A program made the translations under genes and the position numbers. The notes beneath the pieces were generated by a model. The model had not been told where the DNA came from, made no database searches, and saw only the letters and a program-made list of their open reading frames with translations. Shown in pieces: positions 38,755 through 50,428 of a DNA stretch of 64,000 bases. Every line of letters begins with the position of its first letter. The stretch's first letter is position 1. Location of the stretch: contig JACJID010000001.1 of NCBI GenBank assembly GCA_014138725.1, positions 1,302,001 through 1,366,000 on the forward strand. The letters are read 5' to 3'. This DNA comes from Kutzneria viridogrisea. GTDB lineage: Bacteria; Actinomycetota; Actinomycetes; Mycobacteriales; Pseudonocardiaceae.

Positions 38755-39975
38755 TCAGCCCGCCCACTTCAGCACCGTGAACAAGGTCATCATCGTGGCC
38801 TGCACACCCAGTGACAGCGCGAAGAGCGGGATCAGCAGGACCGACCAGGACGGCTTGCGCCGGACGAAGACCGCCACGGCAAGGTACAACCCCAGGCAGG
38901 GCAACAGGTACCGGTACACCGACACGAGGTTGCTGTTCAGGGTGAACATGACCAGCGAGGCGGCGCCGAACAGGGCCAGCGGCAGACCGGGTCCGCGCAG
39001 TGCCCGCACCAGGTAGCAGCTCGCGAGCACCAGCAGCGCGAGGCCGACCAGCGGCAGGATCGTGTTCGGCAGGTCGTACTGGCCCCACGCCGCCTGCCCG
39101 CTCAGCAGCCGCCAGGCCTGGTGCGACTGCCTGACCAGGGTGAGCAGGATGTTCGGTTCGAACACGTGGTAGGCCCACTCGTTGGTGGCCCGGTACGCCT
39201 TGGCCATCGCCAGTGGGTCACCGGCCACAATGGACAGCCACGTGGCGTAGCCGAGCCAACCCAGTGCACTGGCGGGGAACCACAACACCTGCCAGGACAG
39301 CAGCCCGCGGACCTTCCAGTCCCGCGAGCGCCAGAACTCCAGGAAACACAGGCCCACGAACAGAATCGCCGTGATCCGGGCGGCGGTCAACGGGATCAGG
39401 CACAGTCCCATGTAGACCCACTGCCGCCGCAGCGCGAACAGGTAGGCCCAGAACGCGAGCGCGATGAAGATCGCCTCGCTGTAGAACTCGTGCAGGAAGA
39501 ACGCCGGGGGAGCGGCCAGGTACAGGGCCACCAGCAGCCACGGGGCGAGGCGCCCGCCGAGCAGGTGCCTGCCGATGCCCAGCAGCGCGAGCACACCCAG
39601 CCAGGTGGCCGCGGTGTTCACCAGCAGACCGGCCCACAGCGTGGGCAGCGCACCGAAGCTCGCCCACTGCACCAGGAGCACCGCGAACGGGAACAGCGGG
39701 TAGAACGCGGGCGCGGCCTTGTTCGTCGCGTACTCCCCGTTGAGCACGCGCTGGAACCAGCCGCCGTCCCAGTTGCCGGTGTGCGTCACCACGGAGGGCA
39801 TCGCGTGCTTGGACAGCGCGGACTGGATCAGCGCACCGGCGATGGTCAGCACGGCCTGCCAGGCGAGCACCAGCAGCAGCACGCGCACGGCGTCGCTGTG
39901 CAGCAGGCCGCGTCGTGGCCGGTCCCCCTCGCTGACGGCCGTGTCGATGCGCGGCGGCGTCAGAACACCGGTCAT
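38755..39975 (-). CDS. GT-C type integral membrane glycosyltransferase (PIG-V/mannosyltransferase-like)
   Basis: This is a 406-residue protein with about 10 membrane helices. The first periplasmic loop contains the acidic motif TGNWDGGWFQRV, and a conserved PAFYPLFPFAVL follows, both typical of PIG-V-like polyprenyl-phosphate-mannose transferases. EFYSEAIFIALAFWAYLFAL and LNSNLVSVYRYLLPCLGLYL are later membrane segments. It would transfer a sugar to an extracytoplasmic acceptor. It lies downstream of the LAL regulator on the same strand, with a small hairpin between. Confidence 0.7.
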   Translation of the reverse strand: MTGVLTPPRIDTAVSEGDRPRRGLLHSDAVRVLLLVLAWQAVLTIAGALIQSALSKHAMPSVVTHTGNWDGGWFQRVLNGEYATNKAAPAFYPLFPFAVLLVQWASFGALPTLWAGLLVNTAATWLGVLALLGIGRHLLGGRLAPWLLVALYLAAPPAFFLHEFYSEAIFIALAFWAYLFALRRQWVYMGLCLIPLTAARITAILFVGLCFLEFWRSRDWKVRGLLSWQVLWFPASALGWLGYATWLSIVAGDPLAMAKAYRATNEWAYHVFEPNILLTLVRQSHQAWRLLSGQAAWGQYDLPNTILPLVGLALLVLASCYLVRALRGPGLPLALFGAASLVMFTLNSNLVSVYRYLLPCLGLYLAVAVFVRRKPSWSVLLIPLFALSLGVQATMMTLFTVLKWAG

Positions 39976-39985
39976 ACTGGAACTC

Positions 39986-40002
39986 CCCTCACGGAGTGAG
40001 GG
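39986..40002. promoter_or_regulatory. small inverted repeat upstream of the GT-C gene
   Basis: CCCTCA-CGGAG-TGAGGG forms a 6-bp stem with a 5-base loop, 11 bp before the transferase ATG and 41 bp after the LAL stop. It could be an operator or a weak attenuator. Confidence 0.3.
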
Positions 40003-40042
40003 TGCCTCGGGCAGGGCACGGGTTGCTTCTCCGTGGTGCGGA

Positions 40043-42958
40043 TCACGCTCGCAGCAGCTGGCTGGCGTAGCTGCTGAGCGCCTCCCGATCAGGTTGCTGG
40101 GTCTTGGCGATCAGACTGGCCACGTGCTTCTCCACCGTGCGCGGGGAGATGTGCAGCCTGGTCGCGATGGCCTTGTTGCCCAGCCGCTCCACCAGCAGCC
40201 GGAACACGTCGTACTCACGGACCGTGACCCCCACCGCGCGCAGCACGCGGGGCACCTGGTCCGTGCCGGTTCTTCGCTGCTGCACCGAGACGCCGACCTG
40301 ACGCAGCAGGCCCCGGCACGCGCTGGCGGTCGCGGTGACCCCGAGCTGGTGGAAGTACTCCTCGGCACGGCGCAGCCACAGCACCGGCTCGCCCCAGCCG
40401 TCCGCGTGCGCCGCCTCGGCGGTCAGCCGCAGGCCCAAGTGGCGGGCCATCGGGAAGGCCACCGCCGCGCGCTGTGCGCCCTCCATCGCCGCCGCGGCCT
40501 CCTCGGCTCGTCCGTCCCTGCCGAGCAGGATCGCACGGGCCAGCTCCGCGAAGTGCCGGTTCCAGCGCATCGCGCCCGCGGGGGAAGCGGTCACCTCCCG
40601 GTGCTGCGCCCACCCGGCCCGTCCGGCCAGCACCCCCAACAGCAGGTGCAGCCCGTGCCGCCCGGCCAGGTGGAAGTTCGTCGGGTTCGCCGCCTCGTGC
40701 GCCAGCGCCTGGCCCAGTTCGCGCTCGGCCAGCGGGCGGTCCTCCTCAAGCAGGGCGCAGAACACCCTGGCCAGCCCCACCGACAGGGTCAGCTCCTGGG
40801 ACTTGTCCCCGCCCCAGGCGCGGAACTCGGCCAGCGCGCTTTCCATGCCCCCGCGGTCGCACTGGTGCGCGGCCAGGGTCGCGCGGGTCATCAGCACGTA
40901 CCGGGCGATGCCCGCCAACTGCAACCGGGTCGCCGACTCCCAGAGCCGGTCCACCAGTTCGCGCGCCGTGCCGAACTGCCCGCCCAGCACCGCACCCAGC
41001 GCGATCACCGCCTCGGCGTTGTACGACATGGTGATCGCGCCGATGCGCAGCGCCTCCTGCCTGGCCCGCTCCAGGCTGCCGGTGTCGGCCTCGGCCAGCC
41101 AGTCGATCCCGGCCAGCCTGGTCAGCGCGTAGCTGCGCTGCAACGGCAGGTGGTGCTCCTCGCTGATCTGCCTGGCCCGCTCGAAGCAGGCCACGGCCTC
41201 CGCCAGGTCGTGTTCGCGGGCGATGATGCCCAGCAGCTCCCAGGCCTCGCACTCCACCACCGGCAGGGACACCCGCCTTGCCGCCGCCGCGGCCCGCCTT
41301 GCCAGCGCCTCCGCGGTGCGGATCCGCTCCGGGCTGGGGGTCTGCAACACCAGGTACGCCGCGATCATGTCCACCGGCGCGCTGTCCTCGTCGCGGGCGT
41401 CCCCGCCCAGCAGGGCGCGGGCGGTCTCCACCTGCTCGATGCCGTCGGCCCCGCGCCCGGCCAGGTAGGCGACCTTGGCCAGCCGGGTGTGCAGGGCCGC
41501 ACGCCGCGAGCGGTCCAGCCCAGCCCCATTCAGCGCTGTCCCGTCCAACTCGTCCAGGGTGCCGGCGAGCTGGAAGGCGCGCTCGAACTGGCCCGCCTCG
41601 GCCAGCGCGGGCAGCAGGGACTCCAGGATGTCCGCGCGGATACCCGCGTCGAGCTGGCTGGTCAGCAGGCGGTTCGCGCGGTCGAGCAGGGCCACGGCCG
41701 AGCCCGCTGCCCCGTCGCCCAGCGCGCGCCGACCCGCCTCCGCGAGCAGCCTGCCCGCCTCCGCGGTCTGGTTGGCGTCCAGCCGCAGCGAGGCGGCGAG
41801 CTGGCACCAGTGACCGGGCAGCCCCGGGTACAGGCGCTGCACGACATCGGCCACCTGGCCGGACAGCTCCGCGCGGTCGCTGGGGGTCAGCTGGCCCAGC
41901 AGGGCCTCGGCGGTCAGCGGGTGGCGGAAGGCGTACCAGTCGGGCGCGGGCTCGTCGGGGGTCACCAGCTGCGCGGCCACCCCGGCGTGCAGGTGCGACA
42001 GCAGGGTCCGGTCGTCGGTGCCCGCGACCTCGCGCAGCACCGCCAGCGGGAAGCGGTGCCCGAGCACGGCGGCCACCGACAGCAGCATCCTGCCCTGCGG
42101 ACCGAGCCGGTCGGTGCGGTGCGCGATGCTGCGCACCAGTGCGGCGGGCACCTCCGTGCGCAGCTCGCCGACGACCCGCCAGCCGCCGCCCCCGCGCACG
42201 AGCAGCCCGTTGGCCACCATGCCGTGCAGCAGTTCCTCGACCACGAACGGGATGCCCGCGCTGTCCGCGTAGAGCTTGTCCACGACCTCGGCGGGCAGCG
42301 AGCCGGGCGGGGTCTCCAGGCAGGCGGCGGCCATGTCGCGCACCTGCCCGCGGGTGAGCCGGTGCAGCGGGAGCAGCCGGCCGGTGTGCCGCTGCTCGGC
42401 GGCACGGGCCAGGTCCAGCGCCCCGCAGGGCTCGTCCCGGATCGTGGCCAGCAGCACGATCGGCAGCCGGTCCAGGTTGTCCACCAGGTACTCGACCACG
42501 GCCAGGGTCTCGGCGTCGGCGTCGTGCAGGTCCTCCAGCACCAGCAGGCAGCCCGTCCCGCGCCCGGCCACCGCGAGCAGCCGCAGCACCGCCTCGGCCA
42601 GCACCACCAGCGAGCCGCCCGCGGACTCGGAGGTGTGCCACTCCGGGATGAGCCTGCCCAGCACCGGGCGGTACGGGCCCAGTTCCTCGTCCTGGAACGG
42701 CTCCCCACCGCGCAACAGCGACAGCAGCGCCTCGGCCAGCGGCCGGAACGGCACCATGGGGCCGATCGTGGAGCCCCGTCCGCGCAGCACCCGCATGCCC
42801 CGGTCGAAGGCCGTGCCCCCGGCGGCGGCCGCCAGCCGGGACTTGCCGATACCGGGCTCGCCGACCAGGAACGCCGAGCTGCCCCTGGCGAGCAGCACCG
42901 TGTTCAGTTCGGCCAGTTCCTCGTCACGCCCGACGATCAGCGGAGCGCGGGTCTGCAT
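40043..42958 (-). CDS. LAL-type LuxR-family transcriptional regulator
   Basis: This is a 971-residue large ATP-binding LuxR regulator. The N-terminal AAA/NTPase has the P-loop FLVGEPGIGKS (30-40) and Walker B LLVLEDLHDAD, followed by a long helical TPR-like middle. The C-terminal helix-turn-helix is LGNKAIATRLHISPRTVEKH, ending only 30 residues from the stop. LAL regulators usually activate pathway-specific genes. It lies directly downstream of the LanM-peptide pair but beyond a terminator hairpin, so it is probably a separate transcript controlling that cluster. Confidence 0.87.
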   Translation of the reverse strand: MQTRAPLIVGRDEELAELNTVLLARGSSAFLVGEPGIGKSRLAAAAGGTAFDRGMRVLRGRGSTIGPMVPFRPLAEALLSLLRGGEPFQDEELGPYRPVLGRLIPEWHTSESAGGSLVVLAEAVLRLLAVAGRGTGCLLVLEDLHDADAETLAVVEYLVDNLDRLPIVLLATIRDEPCGALDLARAAEQRHTGRLLPLHRLTRGQVRDMAAACLETPPGSLPAEVVDKLYADSAGIPFVVEELLHGMVANGLLVRGGGGWRVVGELRTEVPAALVRSIAHRTDRLGPQGRMLLSVAAVLGHRFPLAVLREVAGTDDRTLLSHLHAGVAAQLVTPDEPAPDWYAFRHPLTAEALLGQLTPSDRAELSGQVADVVQRLYPGLPGHWCQLAASLRLDANQTAEAGRLLAEAGRRALGDGAAGSAVALLDRANRLLTSQLDAGIRADILESLLPALAEAGQFERAFQLAGTLDELDGTALNGAGLDRSRRAALHTRLAKVAYLAGRGADGIEQVETARALLGGDARDEDSAPVDMIAAYLVLQTPSPERIRTAEALARRAAAAARRVSLPVVECEAWELLGIIAREHDLAEAVACFERARQISEEHHLPLQRSYALTRLAGIDWLAEADTGSLERARQEALRIGAITMSYNAEAVIALGAVLGGQFGTARELVDRLWESATRLQLAGIARYVLMTRATLAAHQCDRGGMESALAEFRAWGGDKSQELTLSVGLARVFCALLEEDRPLAERELGQALAHEAANPTNFHLAGRHGLHLLLGVLAGRAGWAQHREVTASPAGAMRWNRHFAELARAILLGRDGRAEEAAAAMEGAQRAAVAFPMARHLGLRLTAEAAHADGWGEPVLWLRRAEEYFHQLGVTATASACRGLLRQVGVSVQQRRTGTDQVPRVLRAVGVTVREYDVFRLLVERLGNKAIATRLHISPRTVEKHVASLIAKTQQPDREALSSYASQLLRA

Positions 42959-42970
42959 GTGCAGACCTTA

Positions 42971-42999
42971 GACGGCGGGGCGTGACTTTCCCCGCCGTC
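42971..42999 (-). terminator. 10-bp perfect hairpin after the LanM-linked peptide gene
   Basis: GACGGCGGGG (42971-42980) pairs with CCCCGCCGTC (42990-42999) around a 9-base loop. It stands 28 bp after the peptide stop and 13 bp before the regulator start, so the lanM-peptide transcript likely ends here. Confidence 0.75.
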
Positions 43000-43026
43000 C
43001 AGGCCGATGCCCGCGGAATTCGGTGA

Positions 43027-43236
43027 TCAGGCCTGCGGGTGGCCCACGATGCTGACCACGGTGCTCACGTTCGCGGTGACCGCCGCGAACGCCCCCATGC
43101 CCACGGTCAGACCGAGCAGCGCGGTGGCGCGCAGTCCGGCCCGTGTTCTCGGCTGCACCGAGATCTCGCCCGCGGGATTCGCGCCGCTGTCCACGGTCTC
43201 GTCCACGACCGGCTCGTTGCGCATGGCCTCGCTCAT
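43027..43236 (-). CDS. 69-residue hydrophobic peptide coupled to lanM (candidate RiPP precursor without cysteine)
   Basis: Translation gives a hydrophilic acidic first half (MSEAMRNEPVVDETVDSGAN) and a second half that is one hydrophobic helix, LRATALLGLTVGMGAFAAVT, ending ANVSTVVSIVGHPQA. The ATG overlaps the lanM stop as ATGA (43233-43236), so it is made with the synthetase. Size and acidic-leader layout suit a lanthipeptide precursor, and the tail has several Ser/Thr. There is no cysteine at all, so lanthionine rings could not form within it. It may instead be a dehydrated-only product, a partner peptide or an immunity/anchor protein. No family is recognised. Confidence 0.6.
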   Translation of the reverse strand: MSEAMRNEPVVDETVDSGANPAGEISVQPRTRAGLRATALLGLTVGMGAFAAVTANVSTVVSIVGHPQA

Positions 43237-46200
43237 CCCAGTTGACTCCTTGTCGAGTTGGTTGTGTCGAGTTGCAGCACGGACGGCACGTGGGCGAAGC
43301 CCAGCCGGAGCAGGCCGTAGCCGATCCCGGCCAGCCCGCTGAGCAGGCCGGGGGTCGGCACGCCGTCCGGGGTGCCGCAGCGCGGACCGTACTGGCTGAG
43401 CGATCCCAGCAGCAGCCCCGCCCGGCGGTTGCGGGCGGCCTCGGCCGCCTGATCGCCCCGTGACGCGAGCGCCGCCAGCGCGTCCAGCACACCGAGCTCA
43501 CCGTGACACAGGCTCAGGTCCCGCAACGGTGGCTGCTCGGCGAGCAGGGACACCTGCTGCGGCTCCCGCTCGGCCAGCACCAAGCCGGCCAGACCCGTGC
43601 ACCAGCCCTGACCCTCGATGTCGGTGCCGTGGCCGAATTCGTTGGCCGCCCGCTCGTGCCGTTCGCTGCCGATCGTCGCGGCCAGCCTGCGCAGCGCCCA
43701 GCCCACACCGGCGGGTCCGCGTGCGAACCCGGCGCCGGTGCTGGTCCGGTGTACGCCGGAGGTCAGCCGATCGGCGTAGCGGATGGCCAGGTCGCCCGCC
43801 TGGGCCAAGCCCGTCTCCCGGTGCACGGCCAGCATCGCCGCCAGCCCGCCCGCAAGTCCCTCCGCCACATCCGCAGGTTCGTCGCTGCCGGTGGTCCGCT
43901 CAAGGTCCGTTGCCAGATCGAGGGCCAGGCGCAGCGTGTCCGTGAGGTTCGCCCCGGCGAGCAGCCCGGACAGCCTGGCCAGCGCGTAGCAGATGCCGCC
44001 CAGCCCGTGGAATCCGCCGGACCCCACCGCGGCGCCCAGTTCCCGGTTGGCCGCCAGGCTGGACAGCAGCGCGGGCAGCGGGCGCAGCGCGTCCACCGCG
44101 AGGTCCACGTAGCGCGGGGCGCCGGTCAGCTCCGCCAACTGGGCCAGGAACAGCGCCACCCCGGTGTAGCCGTTGGCCAGCCCGGCACCCATGGGCAGCA
44201 CCAGCCACTGCCGCTCGTCCACCAGTTCCAGGCCCAGCCAGTTGACCCGGTCCTGGCCGGGGTGCGCGCGGGCGAGAAGTTCGTCGGCGATACCGCAGGC
44301 GGCGGCCAGCAGTCGCTGCGGGTCGGGCACCTCGGCGGTCAGGTGCCCGGGCAGCGCCTCGGCGGAGCGGTGCGGCACCGGACCCGGCCGGGTCGCGAAG
44401 GCGGCGGCGATCAGCCACTCCTGGGCGTGCCGGTCCACCTCGCCCATCCGGGACAGCTTGGCCCGCACCGAGGACAGCCCACTGACCGGCAGGGCCTGGC
44501 CCACCGGGCTGCCGTCGGCGGCCCACAGGTCGCGACTGCCGGGGCGGCAGGTGAACAGCGGCACGTCCCCGGCCCACAGGTCGGCGATCTCGTGCGGCAC
44601 CAGCCGCCAGTGCAGCGGGTCCCGCAGCGAGTCGGTCCACAGCAGGTCGAACACCCGGTCCCGGTCCAGGGCGTCGCGCAGCACGTCGGGGTGCGTGGAC
44701 TCGTCCAGCAGGGTGCCGTAGAGCTGGCTCGGCCGCGCCACGTAGCGGACCTCGTCCTCGGCGAAGCCCGCCAGCAGCTCCGACAGTTCCTCGCGGTGCG
44801 CCACGATCCCGTCGTAGACCGCGCGGAACCCGTTGAGCAGCACGGACTGGTAGTCACCCGGCTCGGGCTCCAGCTCACCCAGGCGCGGCCGGTTGAGCGC
44901 GCCCGCGCTGCGCAGCGTGCGGCGCACCAGGTGCATCGTGTCGGTACCGGCGGCGGCCCAGTCGGCGCTGTCCACCGGCAGGTGCGCGTCCCGGTCACCG
45001 CCCAGCCCCGACACGTCCAGCGCCCCGTTGTCCCCGAGCAGTACCTGCGGCAGCAGGCAGGTCCGCTGCACCGAACGCAGCAGGGCCGCCGCGGCCGGGT
45101 CCTCGCCGGAGGCGCTCACCGGCGGCAGCGTGGGGTGGAACAGGGTCTCCACGTCGACCAGCACCGGCTGGTCCCCGCAGGCGATCAGGTTCTCGTAGTG
45201 CGTGTCCGTGCCGTCCAGGGCGTAGAGCAGCGCGACCAGCGCGCCCTGGCGGTGGTAGAACCGGCTCACCTCGGCCACCGACCCGCACGGGCGGCTCTCG
45301 ACGAACTCCAGCCAGCCGTAGCCCTGGCGCGTCACCAGCCGCACCCCGCGCAGGCCCAGCTCGGGAACCTTGCCGTTGAGCCAGTCCAGCAACTGCCCGA
45401 AGTGCTCGTGCAGGTCCAGCGGCCGGGGCTTGTAGACCACCCGCCTGCCGTCCGCGAAGACCAGCACGGCCACCGAGCGGCCCCGCCGGTGCGCGTCCCC
45501 GCTGTCGGCCAGCACCGAGACCAGCTCACCGGGATCGGTGCCGTCCAGCAGTTCCCGCACGACCACCGCCCGGTCGGCGTCCAGCCGCTCCAGCAGTTCG
45601 CGGTGCGCCGCCACGGCGTGCTGGCAGCTCTGCGCGAGCAGCCGGGCCAGCACGGGGTACGTGGTGAGCAGGCCCGGCAGGTCCAGGCCGCGGGCGAAGT
45701 CGGCGAACCGCTCGGTCGGCGTCTGCCCGGTCAGGTCCCCGCGCGCCCGCGCGCGGTTGAGCTCCAGCACGAGCGTGCGCGCGGCCACCCGCACCAGCCG
45801 TGCCCCCAGCCGCTTGCCGAACTCCTCGGTCAGCGGCCCCTCGCCGAGCTGGCGGCAGGCCGCCCGCACCAGCGGCCACAGCGCGCCCGCCAGCACCTCC
45901 ACCCAGTTCTCGGCCGCCTCGCTCGCGCGGACCCGCCAGCGCAGGGCCGTGGCCACGTAGTCCGCCCAGTCCGGCCGGTGCACGCGGGCGGCCAGCTCCT
46001 CGGGCGCCTCACCCAGCAGACCGGTCAGCGCCGCCTCGTCCAGCCCGGTCTCCGCCAGCCGCCGGCCCAGCCAGTCGCGGTCGGGCGCACCGTGGGCGGA
46101 CCGCCACTGCTCCAGCCGCAGCCGCGCGGACTCCGCGTGGTCGCGCGGGGCCGGTCCCGGCGCGGTCAGCCGCTCGTGCAGGGTCAGGCCACCGGCCCAC

Positions 46201-46244
46201 CACGACCGGTCGCCGACGGCCACGGGGGGTTCACGGTGGCTCAC
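43233..46244 (-). CDS. class II lanthipeptide synthetase LanM
   Basis: This is a 1003-residue bifunctional LanM. The N-terminal DUF4135 dehydratase has kinase-like signatures: YKPRPLDLHEHFGQLL (ATP lysine), DGTDTHYENLIA and VLVDVETLFHPT. The C-terminal LanC-like cyclase keeps all three zinc ligands: Cys882 (GQGWCTGLAGL), Cys913 and His914 (LSLCHGELG), with the final GLLSGLAGIGYGLLRL helices. The GTG at 46244 gives the usual length. It diverges from a C-A NRPS-like gene and is coupled to a 69-residue peptide gene. No LanT transporter or obvious Cys-bearing precursor is seen nearby. Confidence 0.88.
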   Translation of the reverse strand: MSHREPPVAVGDRSWWAGGLTLHERLTAPGPAPRDHAESARLRLEQWRSAHGAPDRDWLGRRLAETGLDEAALTGLLGEAPEELAARVHRPDWADYVATALRWRVRASEAAENWVEVLAGALWPLVRAACRQLGEGPLTEEFGKRLGARLVRVAARTLVLELNRARARGDLTGQTPTERFADFARGLDLPGLLTTYPVLARLLAQSCQHAVAAHRELLERLDADRAVVVRELLDGTDPGELVSVLADSGDAHRRGRSVAVLVFADGRRVVYKPRPLDLHEHFGQLLDWLNGKVPELGLRGVRLVTRQGYGWLEFVESRPCGSVAEVSRFYHRQGALVALLYALDGTDTHYENLIACGDQPVLVDVETLFHPTLPPVSASGEDPAAAALLRSVQRTCLLPQVLLGDNGALDVSGLGGDRDAHLPVDSADWAAAGTDTMHLVRRTLRSAGALNRPRLGELEPEPGDYQSVLLNGFRAVYDGIVAHREELSELLAGFAEDEVRYVARPSQLYGTLLDESTHPDVLRDALDRDRVFDLLWTDSLRDPLHWRLVPHEIADLWAGDVPLFTCRPGSRDLWAADGSPVGQALPVSGLSSVRAKLSRMGEVDRHAQEWLIAAAFATRPGPVPHRSAEALPGHLTAEVPDPQRLLAAACGIADELLARAHPGQDRVNWLGLELVDERQWLVLPMGAGLANGYTGVALFLAQLAELTGAPRYVDLAVDALRPLPALLSSLAANRELGAAVGSGGFHGLGGICYALARLSGLLAGANLTDTLRLALDLATDLERTTGSDEPADVAEGLAGGLAAMLAVHRETGLAQAGDLAIRYADRLTSGVHRTSTGAGFARGPAGVGWALRRLAATIGSERHERAANEFGHGTDIEGQGWCTGLAGLVLAEREPQQVSLLAEQPPLRDLSLCHGELGVLDALAALASRGDQAAEAARNRRAGLLLGSLSQYGPRCGTPDGVPTPGLLSGLAGIGYGLLRLGFAHVPSVLQLDTTNSTRSQLG

Positions 46245-46388
46245 GCGCTGAAACTTTGCACGCGGGCGCCGTCGGCACATGGGGGACTGGCCCCCAGATT
46301 CCCCTCGCCGCCAGGTTGTCCTGAACCGGACGAATTTGGGGGTGCGGTACCCATCCGCGAGCCCGATGCGGCACGAAGACTGCTGGTC

Positions 46389-48791
46389 ATGTTCCCCCTG
46401 TCTCGCACCCGGCTCAGGCTCTGGCAGCTGGCCGGGTGCGACCAGGGTTCGATCGCCTTCCGGCTGTACGGGCCGCTGGACCTGGACGTGGTGCGGGCAG
46501 CTCTGCGGGACGTGGTCGTACGACACGAACTGTTGCACGCCGACGGCAGGCTCATCGCGGGCACCGACCTGGACCTGCTGGAACTGCGCTGCTCACGGTG
46601 GCAGCTGCCCGCCGCGCTGAGTGCGGCCTCGCACGAGCCGTTCGACCTGAGCAGGCAGCAGCCACTGCGGGTGCGGATCCACACCCTGTCCGCCGAGGAG
46701 CACGTGCTGCTGCTGGTGCTGCACGGGGGGACCGGCTGGCAGTTCGGGCCGGTACTGGCCGACCTGGCCACCGCGTATGCCGCACGCAGCGCGGGCCGGG
46801 TGCCGAACTGGGCGCCGGTCCCGGTGGCGGCGGTCGACCGGGTGCCCCAGCCGCGCAGGCTGCGGTACTGGTCGGACACCCTGGCCGGGTTGCCGGAGGA
46901 ACTGCCGCTGCCCACCGACCACCCGCGCCCGCACATGCCGGGGCATCGGCGCGGGCAGGTCGAGTTCGCGTTCGACCCGGAACTGGCCGAGGTGGCGCGG
47001 GCCTGGGGCACCACCCCGTTCACGGTGGTGCAGGCGGGCTTGGCGGCGCTGCTGTTCCGGCTGGGCGCGGGGGAGGACCTGCCGCTGGGCACGGTGATCG
47101 CCGCGGAGCACGACGAGTTCTCGGGCAACGCGTTGGTGCTGCGCACCGACGTGGGTGGGGACCCGGTTTTCCGCGAACTGGTGCGCAGGGTGCACGAGGC
47201 GAACGGGGCCGCCTTCGCACACCGGCACGTGCCGTTCGCGGACGTGGTCGACACGGTCAACCCGACCAGGTCGGCCGCACGGCACCCGCTGTTCCAGGTG
47301 CTGCTGGTGCAGGACGGTGGCGCCGAGCGCGCCCTGCCACTGCCCGGCCTCACGGTGCGCGGCGAACCGATCGGAGACCAGGCCGCTGGGGTTGACCTGG
47401 GACTGAGGTTCGCCGCGTCCGGCGAGGCGGTGCTGTGCTACCGCGCGGACCTGTTCGAGCGCGACACCGCCGAGGCGCTGGTGCGCAGGCTGCTGCGCCT
47501 GCTCGACCAGGCACTGTCCGATCCGGACGTCCGCATCGGACAGCTGGACCTGCTGGAGCCGGGCGAACTGCACGTGCTGGCGGACTGGGCCGAGACCGGC
47601 TCGGCGGCCCCGCAGACGACCCTGCCCGACCTGTTCGAGCGGCAGGTCTGGCTGGGCCCCGACTCGATCGCGTTGTCCTGCCAGGGGCGCGACACGACCT
47701 ACGCCGAGCTCAACGTGCGGGCCAACCAGGTCGCGCACCGGCTGCTGCTGCACGGGATCGGCCCCGAGGACGTGGTGGCCCTCGCCCTGCCCCGCGGCCC
47801 CGAACTGGTGGTGGCGGTGCTCGGGGTGCTCAAGGCCGGAGCCGCCCACCTGGTGCTGGACCCGGCGCAGGACGTGCCGCCGGACGTGGCGCACGTGCTC
47901 ACCGCGGGGGACGTGCCGACCGAGCCCGGCTCGGCTCCGGTGGGCAACCCGAGGCGGCGGCTGCACCCGCAGCACCCGGCCTACCTGATCCGGGCCGCGG
48001 GTCGCGGTGAGACGGTGGTCGTGCCGCACGCGGGCATCGCCGACCTGGCCGAGTCCACCCGCACCTGGTGGTGCCTGGAGCCGGACAGCCGGGTGTTGCA
48101 GTACAGCCCGCCGACCCAGGACGGCTACGTGGTGGAACTGGTGGCCGCCCTGCTCACCGGCGCGCGGCTGGTGCTGGCCCCGGCCGAGCGGCTGGCGCCG
48201 GGGCGTGCGCTCACCGAGCTGCTTGCCGAGCAGCAGGTGACCCACCTGGTGCTGCCGCCCGCCGCGCTGGCCGCCCTGCCCGACGGGGCGGTGCCCGAGG
48301 CCGCGGTGGTGGCGGTCAGCGGCGAGGGCTGCCGGCCCGAGGTGCTGCGCCGCTGGGCCACCGGGCGACGGGTGGTCACCTGCTACGGCGGCACCGAGAC
48401 CACGGCCTGTGCCACGATGAGCGATCCGCTGGAGGATGGCGCGGTGGCGGGCATCGGCAGGCCCGCGTTCGGCCGCCGGGTGTACGTGTTGGACGGTGCC
48501 CTGCGCCGGGTGCCCATCGGCGTGCCCGGTGAGTTGTACGTGGCGGGCGGGCTGGCACGCGGTTACCAGGGGGAGCCGGGGCTGACCGCACAGCGCTTCG
48601 TGCCCGATCCCTTCGGTGAGCCGGGCTCACGCATGTACCGGACGGGCGACCTGGTTCGCTGGCTCGGTGACGGCAGCCTCCAGTACCTGGAGCGGGTGGA
48701 CGAGCGCGCTCAGGTGCGCGGCTTCCGTTTGCAACTGGGACGCATCGAGTCCACTCTGCACACCGAGCCCGCCGACTCGCCCGCCCGGTGA
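46389..48791 (+). CDS. degenerate C-A NRPS-like protein lacking catalytic motifs
   Basis: This is an 800-residue protein with recognisable condensation and adenylation folds but damaged active sites. The C domain keeps RHELLHA, LPLPTDHPRP and HPLFQVLLVQ. HHxxxDG is replaced by LHGGTGWQFGP, so the catalytic His and Asp are gone. In the A domain the A3 P-loop (YTSGSTGxPKG) reads YLIRAAGRGETVVV and A4 reads QDGYVVELVAA, while A5 (CYGGTETTACA) and A7 (YRTGDLVRW) persist. It stops soon after A8 (VRGFRLQLGRIES), with no A10 lysine and no carrier domain. The frame is fully open, so it may be a repurposed pseudo-NRPS or an early pseudogene. ATG at 46389 is the first good start. Confidence 0.75.
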   Translation: MFPLSRTRLRLWQLAGCDQGSIAFRLYGPLDLDVVRAALRDVVVRHELLHADGRLIAGTDLDLLELRCSRWQLPAALSAASHEPFDLSRQQPLRVRIHTLSAEEHVLLLVLHGGTGWQFGPVLADLATAYAARSAGRVPNWAPVPVAAVDRVPQPRRLRYWSDTLAGLPEELPLPTDHPRPHMPGHRRGQVEFAFDPELAEVARAWGTTPFTVVQAGLAALLFRLGAGEDLPLGTVIAAEHDEFSGNALVLRTDVGGDPVFRELVRRVHEANGAAFAHRHVPFADVVDTVNPTRSAARHPLFQVLLVQDGGAERALPLPGLTVRGEPIGDQAAGVDLGLRFAASGEAVLCYRADLFERDTAEALVRRLLRLLDQALSDPDVRIGQLDLLEPGELHVLADWAETGSAAPQTTLPDLFERQVWLGPDSIALSCQGRDTTYAELNVRANQVAHRLLLHGIGPEDVVALALPRGPELVVAVLGVLKAGAAHLVLDPAQDVPPDVAHVLTAGDVPTEPGSAPVGNPRRRLHPQHPAYLIRAAGRGETVVVPHAGIADLAESTRTWWCLEPDSRVLQYSPPTQDGYVVELVAALLTGARLVLAPAERLAPGRALTELLAEQQVTHLVLPPAALAALPDGAVPEAAVVAVSGEGCRPEVLRRWATGRRVVTCYGGTETTACATMSDPLEDGAVAGIGRPAFGRRVYVLDGALRRVPIGVPGELYVAGGLARGYQGEPGLTAQRFVPDPFGEPGSRMYRTGDLVRWLGDGSLQYLERVDERAQVRGFRLQLGRIESTLHTEPADSPAR

Positions 48792-49033
48792 CGGTGCGTT
48801 GTCGCAAGCGGTCTCCCGGTGCCCTGACGTGAGGGTTCACACCGACCTGCACCAGGTAGGCCGCCTCCGGGCGGGCACAATCCGATAGCGACTGTGCGTG
48901 AGCCGGCTCACTGTTACGCCCCCTAGCCGAAACTCGCCGAATCGGATGCAATTGTGCTGTGTCTTGCGTCTGGCCTCCACGGACGTCATGCTGTGGGCCA
49001 CAATGACAATTGTTGCCCAACCCCGAGGGGCTT

Positions 49034-50428
49034 ATGCCGCATCCGCGACCAGCGCTGCACCGGACCATTTTCGCTGTTGACGTGGAAGGGTTCGGCGATA
49101 GCAAGCGCACGAATCCGCACCGGGTCGCCGTCCGGTGCGGAGTCTATCGAGCGCTGCGACGCGCATTCACGCGGGTAGGAATACTGTGGGCGGATTGTGA
49201 ACTCAATGATTGTGGTGACGGCGTGCTCGTGCTCGTGCCCCCGGAGGTGCCGAAGGCATTCCTGGTCGATTCACTTCCGCTGGAACTCGCCGAGGCATTG
49301 AGCGAGCACAACCGGAGCAGTCCGGAGGGGGAGCGGATTCGCCTTCGGGCCGGCCTACACGCCGGCGAGATCAACTTCGATGAGCACGGGGTCAGCTCCT
49401 CCTCGATCAACCACGTGTTCCGGCTGATGGAGGCCCCCGCCTTCAAGGCCGCGCTGGCCGACTCGCCCGGGGTGCTCGCCCTGGTGACCTCCCAGTGGTT
49501 CTACGAGGAAGTGGTGTGCCACAGCGTGCACGCGGCAGCCGAGTCCTACCGCCGCATCCAGGTCAGCGTCAAGGAGACCAGCGCGGACGCCTGGATCGTG
49601 CTGCCTGATCAGGAAGAACCGCCGCGCGTGCCGGAGCTGCACGACAACCCCACGCCCGTGCCACGCCAGCTCCCCGTGCACACCCCGCACTTCGTGGGCC
49701 GCGCAGAGGAACTGGGCCAGCTCGACAAGCTGTTGGACAACCCGGCGCGCGAGGCGGGCACCGTGCAGGTCACCTCGCTGTACGGCCCGGCGGGCATCGG
49801 CAAGACCACCCTCGCCCTGCGCTGGGCGCACCAGGCGGCCGACCGCTTCCCCGACGGGCAGTTGCACGTGGACCTGCGTGGCGCGGGCAATCCGCTGCGC
49901 CCCGAGGTCGCGCTGCGCGGCTTCCTCGGCGCGCTGGGCGTGCCCCACGCGCAGGTGCCGGTCAGCCTCGGCGCGCAGGCCGCCCTGTACCGGACCGTGA
50001 CGACTGGCCGGAAACTGCTGGTGCTGCTGGACAACGCGCGCGACGCCGAGCAGGTGCGCCCACTGCTGCCCGCCAGCCCGGACTGCCTGGTGCTGGTCAC
50101 CAGCCGCGACCAGTTGCCGGGACTGGTGGTGCGGGAGGGTGCCCGGCCCATGCCGCTGGACACCCTCAGCGACGACGAGTCGGCCTCCCTGCTGGCCAAG
50201 CACCTGGGCTGGGACCGGGTCGCCGCCGAGCCCGAGGCCGTGGCCGCCCTCGTCCGCCGCTGCGGGCGCCAGCCGCTGGCGCTGGCCGTGGCGGCGACCC
50301 GAGCCGCGCTCACACCGTGGCTGTCACTGGGCTCGGTGGAGTCCGACCCGCGCTGGACCCTGGGCGTGGGCGACACCGGGGACCGCCGGGTGCCCGCCCG
50401 CTGTCACGTGGGTCTGGGGCGCACCTGA
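49034..50428 (+). CDS. cyclase-like/NB-ARC regulatory NTPase, truncated STAND protein
   Basis: This is a 464-residue protein. The first about 200 residues resemble a class III nucleotide cyclase domain (IFAVDVEGFGD, LNDCGDGVLVLVPP, IRLRAGLHAGEINFD) without clear catalytic metal pairs. An NB-ARC module follows: FVGRAEELGQL, P-loop GPAGIGKTTLAL, Walker B KLLVLLDNARDAE, sensor CLVLVTSRD and RQPLALAVAATRAAL. It then ends, without the TPR or WD repeats that usually follow, so it is short for a STAND regulator. The ATG at 49034 has GAGGGG upstream. It ends in a 25-bp overlap with the convergent esterase gene. Confidence 0.72.
   Translation: MPHPRPALHRTIFAVDVEGFGDSKRTNPHRVAVRCGVYRALRRAFTRVGILWADCELNDCGDGVLVLVPPEVPKAFLVDSLPLELAEALSEHNRSSPEGERIRLRAGLHAGEINFDEHGVSSSSINHVFRLMEAPAFKAALADSPGVLALVTSQWFYEEVVCHSVHAAAESYRRIQVSVKETSADAWIVLPDQEEPPRVPELHDNPTPVPRQLPVHTPHFVGRAEELGQLDKLLDNPAREAGTVQVTSLYGPAGIGKTTLALRWAHQAADRFPDGQLHVDLRGAGNPLRPEVALRGFLGALGVPHAQVPVSLGAQAALYRTVTTGRKLLVLLDNARDAEQVRPLLPASPDCLVLVTSRDQLPGLVVREGARPMPLDTLSDDESASLLAKHLGWDRVAAEPEAVAALVRRCGRQPLALAVAATRAALTPWLSLGSVESDPRWTLGVGDTGDRRVPARCHVGLGRT

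Follow-up and report, generated by a model that had tools for sequence, protein, structure and literature searches.

The closest described systems are the class II lanthipeptides of the mersacidin/lichenicidin type (LanM synthetases; leader model TIGR03898). The locus analysed here lies in a stretch of 64,000 nucleotides from Kutzneria viridogrisea (contig JACJID010000001.1, positions 1,302,001 to 1,366,000; this whole stretch is called the window) and consists of a lanM gene, a gene for a cysteine-free peptide and a gene for a large regulator. It shares with class II systems the LanM fold, the dehydratase residues, a precursor gene adjoining lanM and traces of the leader, but differs in its Cys-free precursor, the loss of the cyclase acid, the lack of a recurring exporter or protease and the fixed presence of a LAL-type regulator gene. 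Cys-free LanM partners have already been noted in print. One paper names, in its accessible part, substrates of the prochlorosin type as well as a group of Streptomyces in which a Cys-free peptide occurs in addition (PMC11251773). The accessible part of a large genome-mining survey (PMC7268733) mentions Cys-free precursors tied to LanM in actinobacterial clusters with LanM and LanKC, as well as some LanM-linked cyanotin and prochlorosin cores without Cys, those named being cyanobacterial with Nif11 leaders. The survey set aside Cys-free LanM partners as not being lanthipeptides (PMC7268733), so that a likely dehydropeptide family could be missed.

As far as their mention in the accessible text goes, the LanM and LanKC clusters resemble the present locus in the Cys-free LanM partner, and one related locus (L141, Kitasatospora) has LanKC alongside; the present group differs in that L141 is its only locus matching a LanKC query. 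Its leader is mersacidin-like at most, in contrast to the Nif11 leaders of cyanotins and prochlorosins. Dehydrazoles (LanMbC, CcaM) likewise involve a DUF4135 enzyme that yields dehydroamino acids and no lanthionine, whereas the LanM described here keeps its zinc ligands, and no YcaO protein was found among the subset of neighbour proteins scanned. Linaridins are dehydrobutyrine-rich and hydrophobic, some lack Cys, and they are made by enzymes other than LanM; the present peptide is like them in hydrophobicity and missing Cys but unlike them in its enzyme. No description of the gene trio, its cyclase loss or its palindrome was found in the literature searched, which is weak evidence, with most subscription papers lying outside it.

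Judged by sequence comparison, the LanM of the window probably dehydrates Ser and Thr of a class II-type precursor without forming an internal thioether, within a dedicated, LAL-controlled module of three genes:

43233..46244, minus strand: LanM-type synthetase, 1003 aa, GTG start (TIGR03897, DUF4135, LANC_like; CylM and LicM2 homologues)
43027..43236, minus strand: cysteine-free putative precursor peptide, 69 aa, with an acidic leader containing NPAGEI, then GLRATALLG, a hydrophobic stretch and C-terminal STVVS (homologues beside LanM; dN/dS)
40043..42958, minus strand: LAL-type regulator, 971 aa (AAA_16 to LuxR helix-turn-helix), third gene of the module (Pfam; relatives)

In the proposed pathway, LanM would bind the leader at the NPAGEI region, then phosphorylate and eliminate C-terminal Thr and Ser to give dehydrobutyrine (Dhb) and dehydroalanine (Dha); candidates in the window peptide are T44, T54, S58, T59 and S62. 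As the peptide lacks a thiol, no lanthionine would arise inside it. The leader may be cut off after the ALLG stretch, which would release a hydrophobic dehydropeptide of 27 residues (predicted monoisotopic mass 2596.37 when unmodified, lower by 18.01 for each dehydration). A palindrome before lanM would be bound by the LAL protein, which would control this one operon.

Relatives were collected with patterns derived from the LanM sequence alone. This search found 402 relatives, of which the best 80 were retained and checked. Together with eight further loci, the window included, they form the trio set of 88 loci. A related peptide gene lay directly downstream of LanM in 78 of the 80 LanM-selected relatives, the other two ending at a contig end and in a run of N, and the regulator gene was present at 79 of the 80. 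In the wider set the peptide was found at 86/88 loci (misses: L153, contig end; L143, run of N) and the regulator at 87/88, in one of these on the opposite strand. A separate peptide search covered 200 relatives, and all of the best 20 places beyond the window were inspected: LanM was present at 17, cut by a contig end at two and absent at one (L052), so that homologues of the peptide were not common without LanM. At L052 (G070:C8) the homologous Cys-free peptide had no match to a window-type LanM or regulator within 16.5 kb; the same genome holds a second, LanM-linked copy in a complete trio (L050). A class-wide search with a small peptide alignment, insensitive because only 15 candidates were scored per genome, gave matches in 10/394 genomes, of which the window's own hit and L055 were beside LanM and eight weak others were not.

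By these searches, the trio of lanM, peptide and LAL regulator is conserved across many actinomycete genera. Two sequence titles look wrong: the LanM of L086 ('Rhodococcus rhodnii') hardly differs from the Kibdelosporangium aridum LanM, and the peptide of L122 ('Melainabacteria') is as in a Kutzneria-family genome. Among open reading frames (ORFs) of at least 90 aa that passed a codon-composition filter, LanM and the regulator alone recurred over more than four genus labels. A wider conserved cluster with exporter, protease or non-ribosomal peptide synthetase (NRPS) was rejected, other neighbours being common to at most four genus labels.

The reading made earlier from the sequence alone had described LanM and the peptide as a self-contained two-gene unit closed by a terminator. 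The 69-residue Cys-free peptide and its overlap with lanM were confirmed: the lanM stop and the peptide start overlap as ATGA, and GGAG stands upstream of the peptide start. The two-gene unit did not hold, as the regulator gene, starting 68 bp downstream of the peptide gene, belongs to the conserved set. That reading had also allowed for a precursor encoded elsewhere. In this case an ordinary lanthipeptide system would use a distant Cys-bearing precursor, with the 69-aa peptide as a helper. A Kutzneria genome (G003) has the palindrome core ahead of a regulator-like gene and a LanKC gene, after which comes an ORF of 42 aa that contains Cys, and LanKC stands beside LanM in the Kitasatospora relative L141, as such an arrangement would have it. 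We nevertheless consider a distant precursor quite improbable, as the related peptide accompanies LanM at 86/88 loci with both misses unreadable, and the exact palindrome occurs in the own genome at lanM only. Long ORFs moreover occupy 38755-48791 with gaps below 150 bp, so a further gene would have to overlap them.

The peptide set comprised 90 sequences from the 86 loci with a peptide, four of which (L118, L125, L131, L145) have two peptide genes in tandem; start codons were set by rule and individual N-termini may be off. Cys was absent from 69/90 peptides and from the part after the ALxG stretch in 74/90. The 69 residues of the window peptide include no Cys and thus offer no Ser/Thr and Cys pairing for (methyl)lanthionine. 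Where present, tail Cys was scattered among members (for example CSTWPT and GSTWPT inside Kribbella) and therefore looks dispensable. Most members are built alike: (N/H)PAGE(I/M), sometimes in variant form, is followed by a segment that closes with ALAG or a like sequence and by a variable tail with a median of 25 residues and six Ser/Thr. Conservation of the Ser/Thr-rich tail, which had been proposed as a check, was found in the relatives: the S62 column held a hydroxyl residue (Ser or Thr) in 22/22 members of a chosen diverse set. TTVS or a near variant occurs in Kutzneria, Saccharothrix, Umezawaea and Lentzea, and STWPTI is frequent in Kribbella. Hydrophobic stretches, defined as 19 residues with a mean Kyte-Doolittle value of at least 1.6, were present in 58/90 peptides and in none of six Amycolatopsis members; membrane insertion is therefore no general feature of the family.

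Nonsynonymous rates were below synonymous rates (dN < dS, ratio 0 to 0.72) in 18/18 pairs of close relatives, which were hand-picked and partly overlap; a 19th pair was unequal in length and was not compared. The 69-aa ORF is therefore coding and a real gene. Membership in a known precursor family was considered and rejected for the window peptide, which matched no Pfam or NCBIfam model, and 22 members gave weak matches only. TIGR03898 did not match the window peptide and gave weak matches in 2/22 relatives, both divergent and over the leader part only (E 0.0056 and 0.0096, below the cut-off); these suggest that the family descended from class II precursors. Further leader traces are NPAG or HPAG, and WKDPEAR in the divergent relative L141.

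The window LanM matched TIGR03897 over its whole length with 703 bits (cut-off 304) and contains DUF4135 and LANC_like domains. For CylM, the accessible part of the source (PMC4550811) lists D252, H254, K274, D347, H349, N352, D364, R506 and T512 as phosphorylation and elimination residues. The equivalents D250, H252, K272, D347, H349, N352, D364 and R500 are all present in the window LanM, which bears out the two dehydratase signatures reported before. T512 corresponds to Ser506, in a column with Thr in 79/88 and Ser in 9/88. The dehydratase residues are retained in 88/88 trio LanMs apart from Lys272, where Arg stands in all 17 Lentzea and two Actinokineospora loci (L093-L137) and in five others. 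Counts of this kind are not significance tests, because the relatives are not independent.

For the cyclase, 21 comparison loci were supplied. L168-L170 were dropped for lack of a match to the window LanM and L175 was left out, leaving 18 rows for 17 genes (the rows L166 and L174 stand for a single gene, and L159 is almost identical to L160). The cyclase had been called intact. This holds for the zinc ligands C882, C913 and H914, which were complete in 87/87 readable trio LanMs, and not for the active-site acid, where His is replaced by Arg842; Thr883 follows the first zinc Cys. Profile alignments place the window GFARG on CylM GFGHG and LicM2 GFSHG. According to the accessible part of one source, this acid (NisC His212, CylM His835) is conserved in LanC, LanCL and LanM (PMC9934072), and NisC H212N and H212F are described, in the part accessible, as keeping zinc and losing cyclisation (PMC7296275). 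Among the 87 readable trio LanMs the column held Arg in 69, His in eight, Asp in five, Thr in two and Trp, Gly and Phe in one each. The comparison rows had His in 16, Glu in one and Asn in one (His in 15/17 genes), and the Glu-bearing LanM falls within the trio clade of the tree (FastTree only; long outgroup branches). One comparison LanM, L157, lies inside this clade, and behind it, too, come a peptide without Cys and the regulator. Parsimony required 11 changes at the acid column on this tree. The second enolate-stabilising position (CylM Lys876) was Ser, Thr, Ala or Gly in 80/87 trio LanMs against 4/18 comparison rows. Loss of a further cyclase Asp (column N691) was dropped as a candidate, since this column varies in comparison LanMs as well.

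As aligned, the cyclase keeps its zinc site but has lost the enolate-protonating acid. With a residue other than His in 79/87, the paradox of an intact cyclase beside a peptide without Cys is largely removed. What the dehydration reading chiefly leaves unexplained is the retained zinc site, and its chief rival starts here: the site would be reused, LanM dehydrating the peptide and then attaching to Dha/Dhb an external thiol (for example mycothiol or unbound Cys) or a different nucleophile, like eukaryotic LanCL with glutathione. The ligands are complete in all readable trio LanMs though most partners lack Cys, and the same fold in LanCL performs intermolecular thiol addition, according to the accessible part of the source (PMC9934072). 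Yet 79/87 have lost the acid His, whose conservation in LanC, LanCL and LanM the same text reports, and the second enolate-stabilising position is small in 80/87, which makes external addition unlikely. It is highly improbable that LanM and peptide form a degenerate remnant, decaying with no product. Loss of the cyclase acid would fit decay, but purifying selection acts on the peptide in 18/18 compared pairs, and the dehydratase and zinc residues, the trio and the palindrome are kept across many genera.

Dehydration without internal rings remains the preferred interpretation. Of the three options named in the sequence-only reading, a dehydrated-only ribosomally synthesised and post-translationally modified peptide (RiPP) is the best supported, by the cognate synteny (78/80) and the loss of the cyclase acid; a precursor elsewhere is unlikely, given the peptide downstream in the same 78 relatives. 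More tentatively, and with slightly less than even confidence, a widespread actinomycete LanM clade may have dropped lanthionine synthesis altogether. Its acid is mostly Arg, its zinc site would be kept for another reaction (addition of an external nucleophile or holding of the peptide) and its precursors are mostly Cys-free, so that it would make up a RiPP family of 'lanthionine-free LanM' enzymes that has a regulator and an operator to itself. In such a clade, natural evolution appears to have uncoupled dehydration from cyclisation, and its zinc site without acid poses the question of the role of a LanC domain that no longer closes rings.

Several observations weigh against the dehydration reading. 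Lys272, the equivalent of CylM Lys274, is Arg in 24/88 trio LanMs, and kinase activity may therefore be weak in some relatives. The retention of the zinc ligands in 87/87 suggests that the site still does something. The peptide has a tail Cys at 14/86 loci, so rings are possible there, and only one Ser/Thr lies in the last 15 residues of 5/90 peptides. Loss of His and loss of Cys do not run in parallel; a dependence of the former on the latter was considered and rejected, no relation being seen (tail Cys in 2/8 His-keeping against 12/78 other loci with a peptide). By the starting profile, 13/86 peptides score below 15 bits; their assignment relies on where they lie and on the ALAG-like stretch. 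Neither an exporter nor a protease recurs, and an ABC signature motif occurred in 8/87 loci (about 16 kb each, window excluded).

Three further features, all on the minus strand, concern regulation:

46277..46299, minus strand: 23-bp palindrome, ATCTGGGGG-N5-CCCCCATGT, upstream of lanM (sequence match; conserved position)
42971..42980 / 42990..42999, minus strand: GC-rich hairpin with a perfect 10-bp stem and a 9-nt loop, between the peptide and regulator genes (sequence; folding)
42965..42970, minus strand: TAAGGT, a hexamer resembling a -10 element, 7-12 nt ahead of the ATG of the regulator gene (column counts, 86 upstream regions)

LAL proteins have an N-terminal AAA/STAND ATPase, a C-terminal LuxR helix-turn-helix and a length of about 900 aa or more. 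With AAA_16 and GerE domains in 971 aa the regulator agrees with this, and we take the name LAL to apply. The palindrome is exact at 46277-46299 (ATNTGGGGG-N5-CCCCCATNT). In the own genome (10.2 Mb in 11 contigs) the 23-bp sequence occurs exactly once and once more with two mismatches allowed (reversed control: two), and a broad LAL regulon was rejected on this ground. In the trio loci, scored with a site defined as at least 13 of 16 matches and distances taken from the start of the LanM match, a site lay between 350 nt before and 60 nt after this start in 52/88 loci; a further 11 had one farther upstream, at 388-618 nt. Other high-scoring sites in these loci were rare: 11 loci, most of them Lentzea, share one about 3.5-4.2 kb upstream, and L148 has another. 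Across 120 genomes, the own included, the exact core was found at 14 sites in 12 genomes (reversed control: none). Ten of these precede a trio lanM, and one site revealed a trio in G021 that the peptide search had missed. The palindrome is thus likely the operator of the LAL regulator, a putative role drawn from co-occurrence only, and may provide a handle for switching the module on. Two results weigh against a universal operator: 25/88 loci have no site by score, and five genomes (G017, G056, G070, G125, G127) have trio or part-trio loci and no exact core.

The place of the regulator in the trio fits another explanation, in which LanM is no maturation enzyme but a scaffold or peptide kinase, and the bound or phosphorylated peptide signals to the LAL protein. 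Among relatives the regulator is more alike (56-76% identity to the window in 17 relatives) than LanM (53-64%), and the accessible part of one paper describes a Clostridium LanM-like protein without conserved catalytic residues that acts downstream of Agr signalling (PMC10301443). The replacement of Lys272 by Arg in 24/88 points the same way. However, the elimination residues D250, H252 and R500 are kept, all 88 LanMs have either Thr (79) or Ser (9) in the T512 column, and no wider regulon is seen, the palindrome being exact once in the genome; a signalling role is therefore rather improbable.

Four exact core sites lie away from a trio lanM. In G003 (L194 8293-12157) the core precedes a regulator-like gene without Pfam match, followed by a class III LanKC (RamC-like) and the 42-aa Cys-containing ORF; by sequence, two lanthipeptide-like operons are possibly under shared control in this genome. 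In a Lentzea genome (G013; L195 8329-11085) the core lies at the 3' end of a LAL paralogue with 39% identity, before a RibD_C-domain gene. Two sites close together occur in G023, with no lanthipeptide gene seen nearby.

The terminator proposed after the peptide gene was not borne out. The 10-bp GC hairpin lacks a T run, and no terminator with a T tail emerged from a consensus scan. A GC-rich hairpin is nevertheless usual between the two genes in the trio loci: of 81 intergenic sequences folded (seven loci omitted for length, gap or orientation), 52 gave z < -2 with 50 simple shuffles each. Column -11 before the regulator start is A in 69/86 loci, from which we infer that the regulator would be on a separate, possibly leaderless transcript.

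Two LanMs of the own genome exceed the family cut-off. The second one (L073, G000:C4:139564-142053) has C-C-C zinc ligands and retains the active-site His; we take its ligands to resemble those of ProcM-type enzymes. Divergent from lanM, an NRPS-like gene (46389-48791, plus strand, 800 aa) encodes an adenylation domain and a condensation domain matched from profile position 99. It has no carrier domain match and looks truncated. Genes resembling it occur at 4/87 other trio loci (L077, L096, L126, L132). Close to the trio follows an NB-ARC/AAA protein (49010-50428, plus strand, 472 aa) that resembles part of AfsR, and a related regulator is found near the trio in another Kutzneria (L036).

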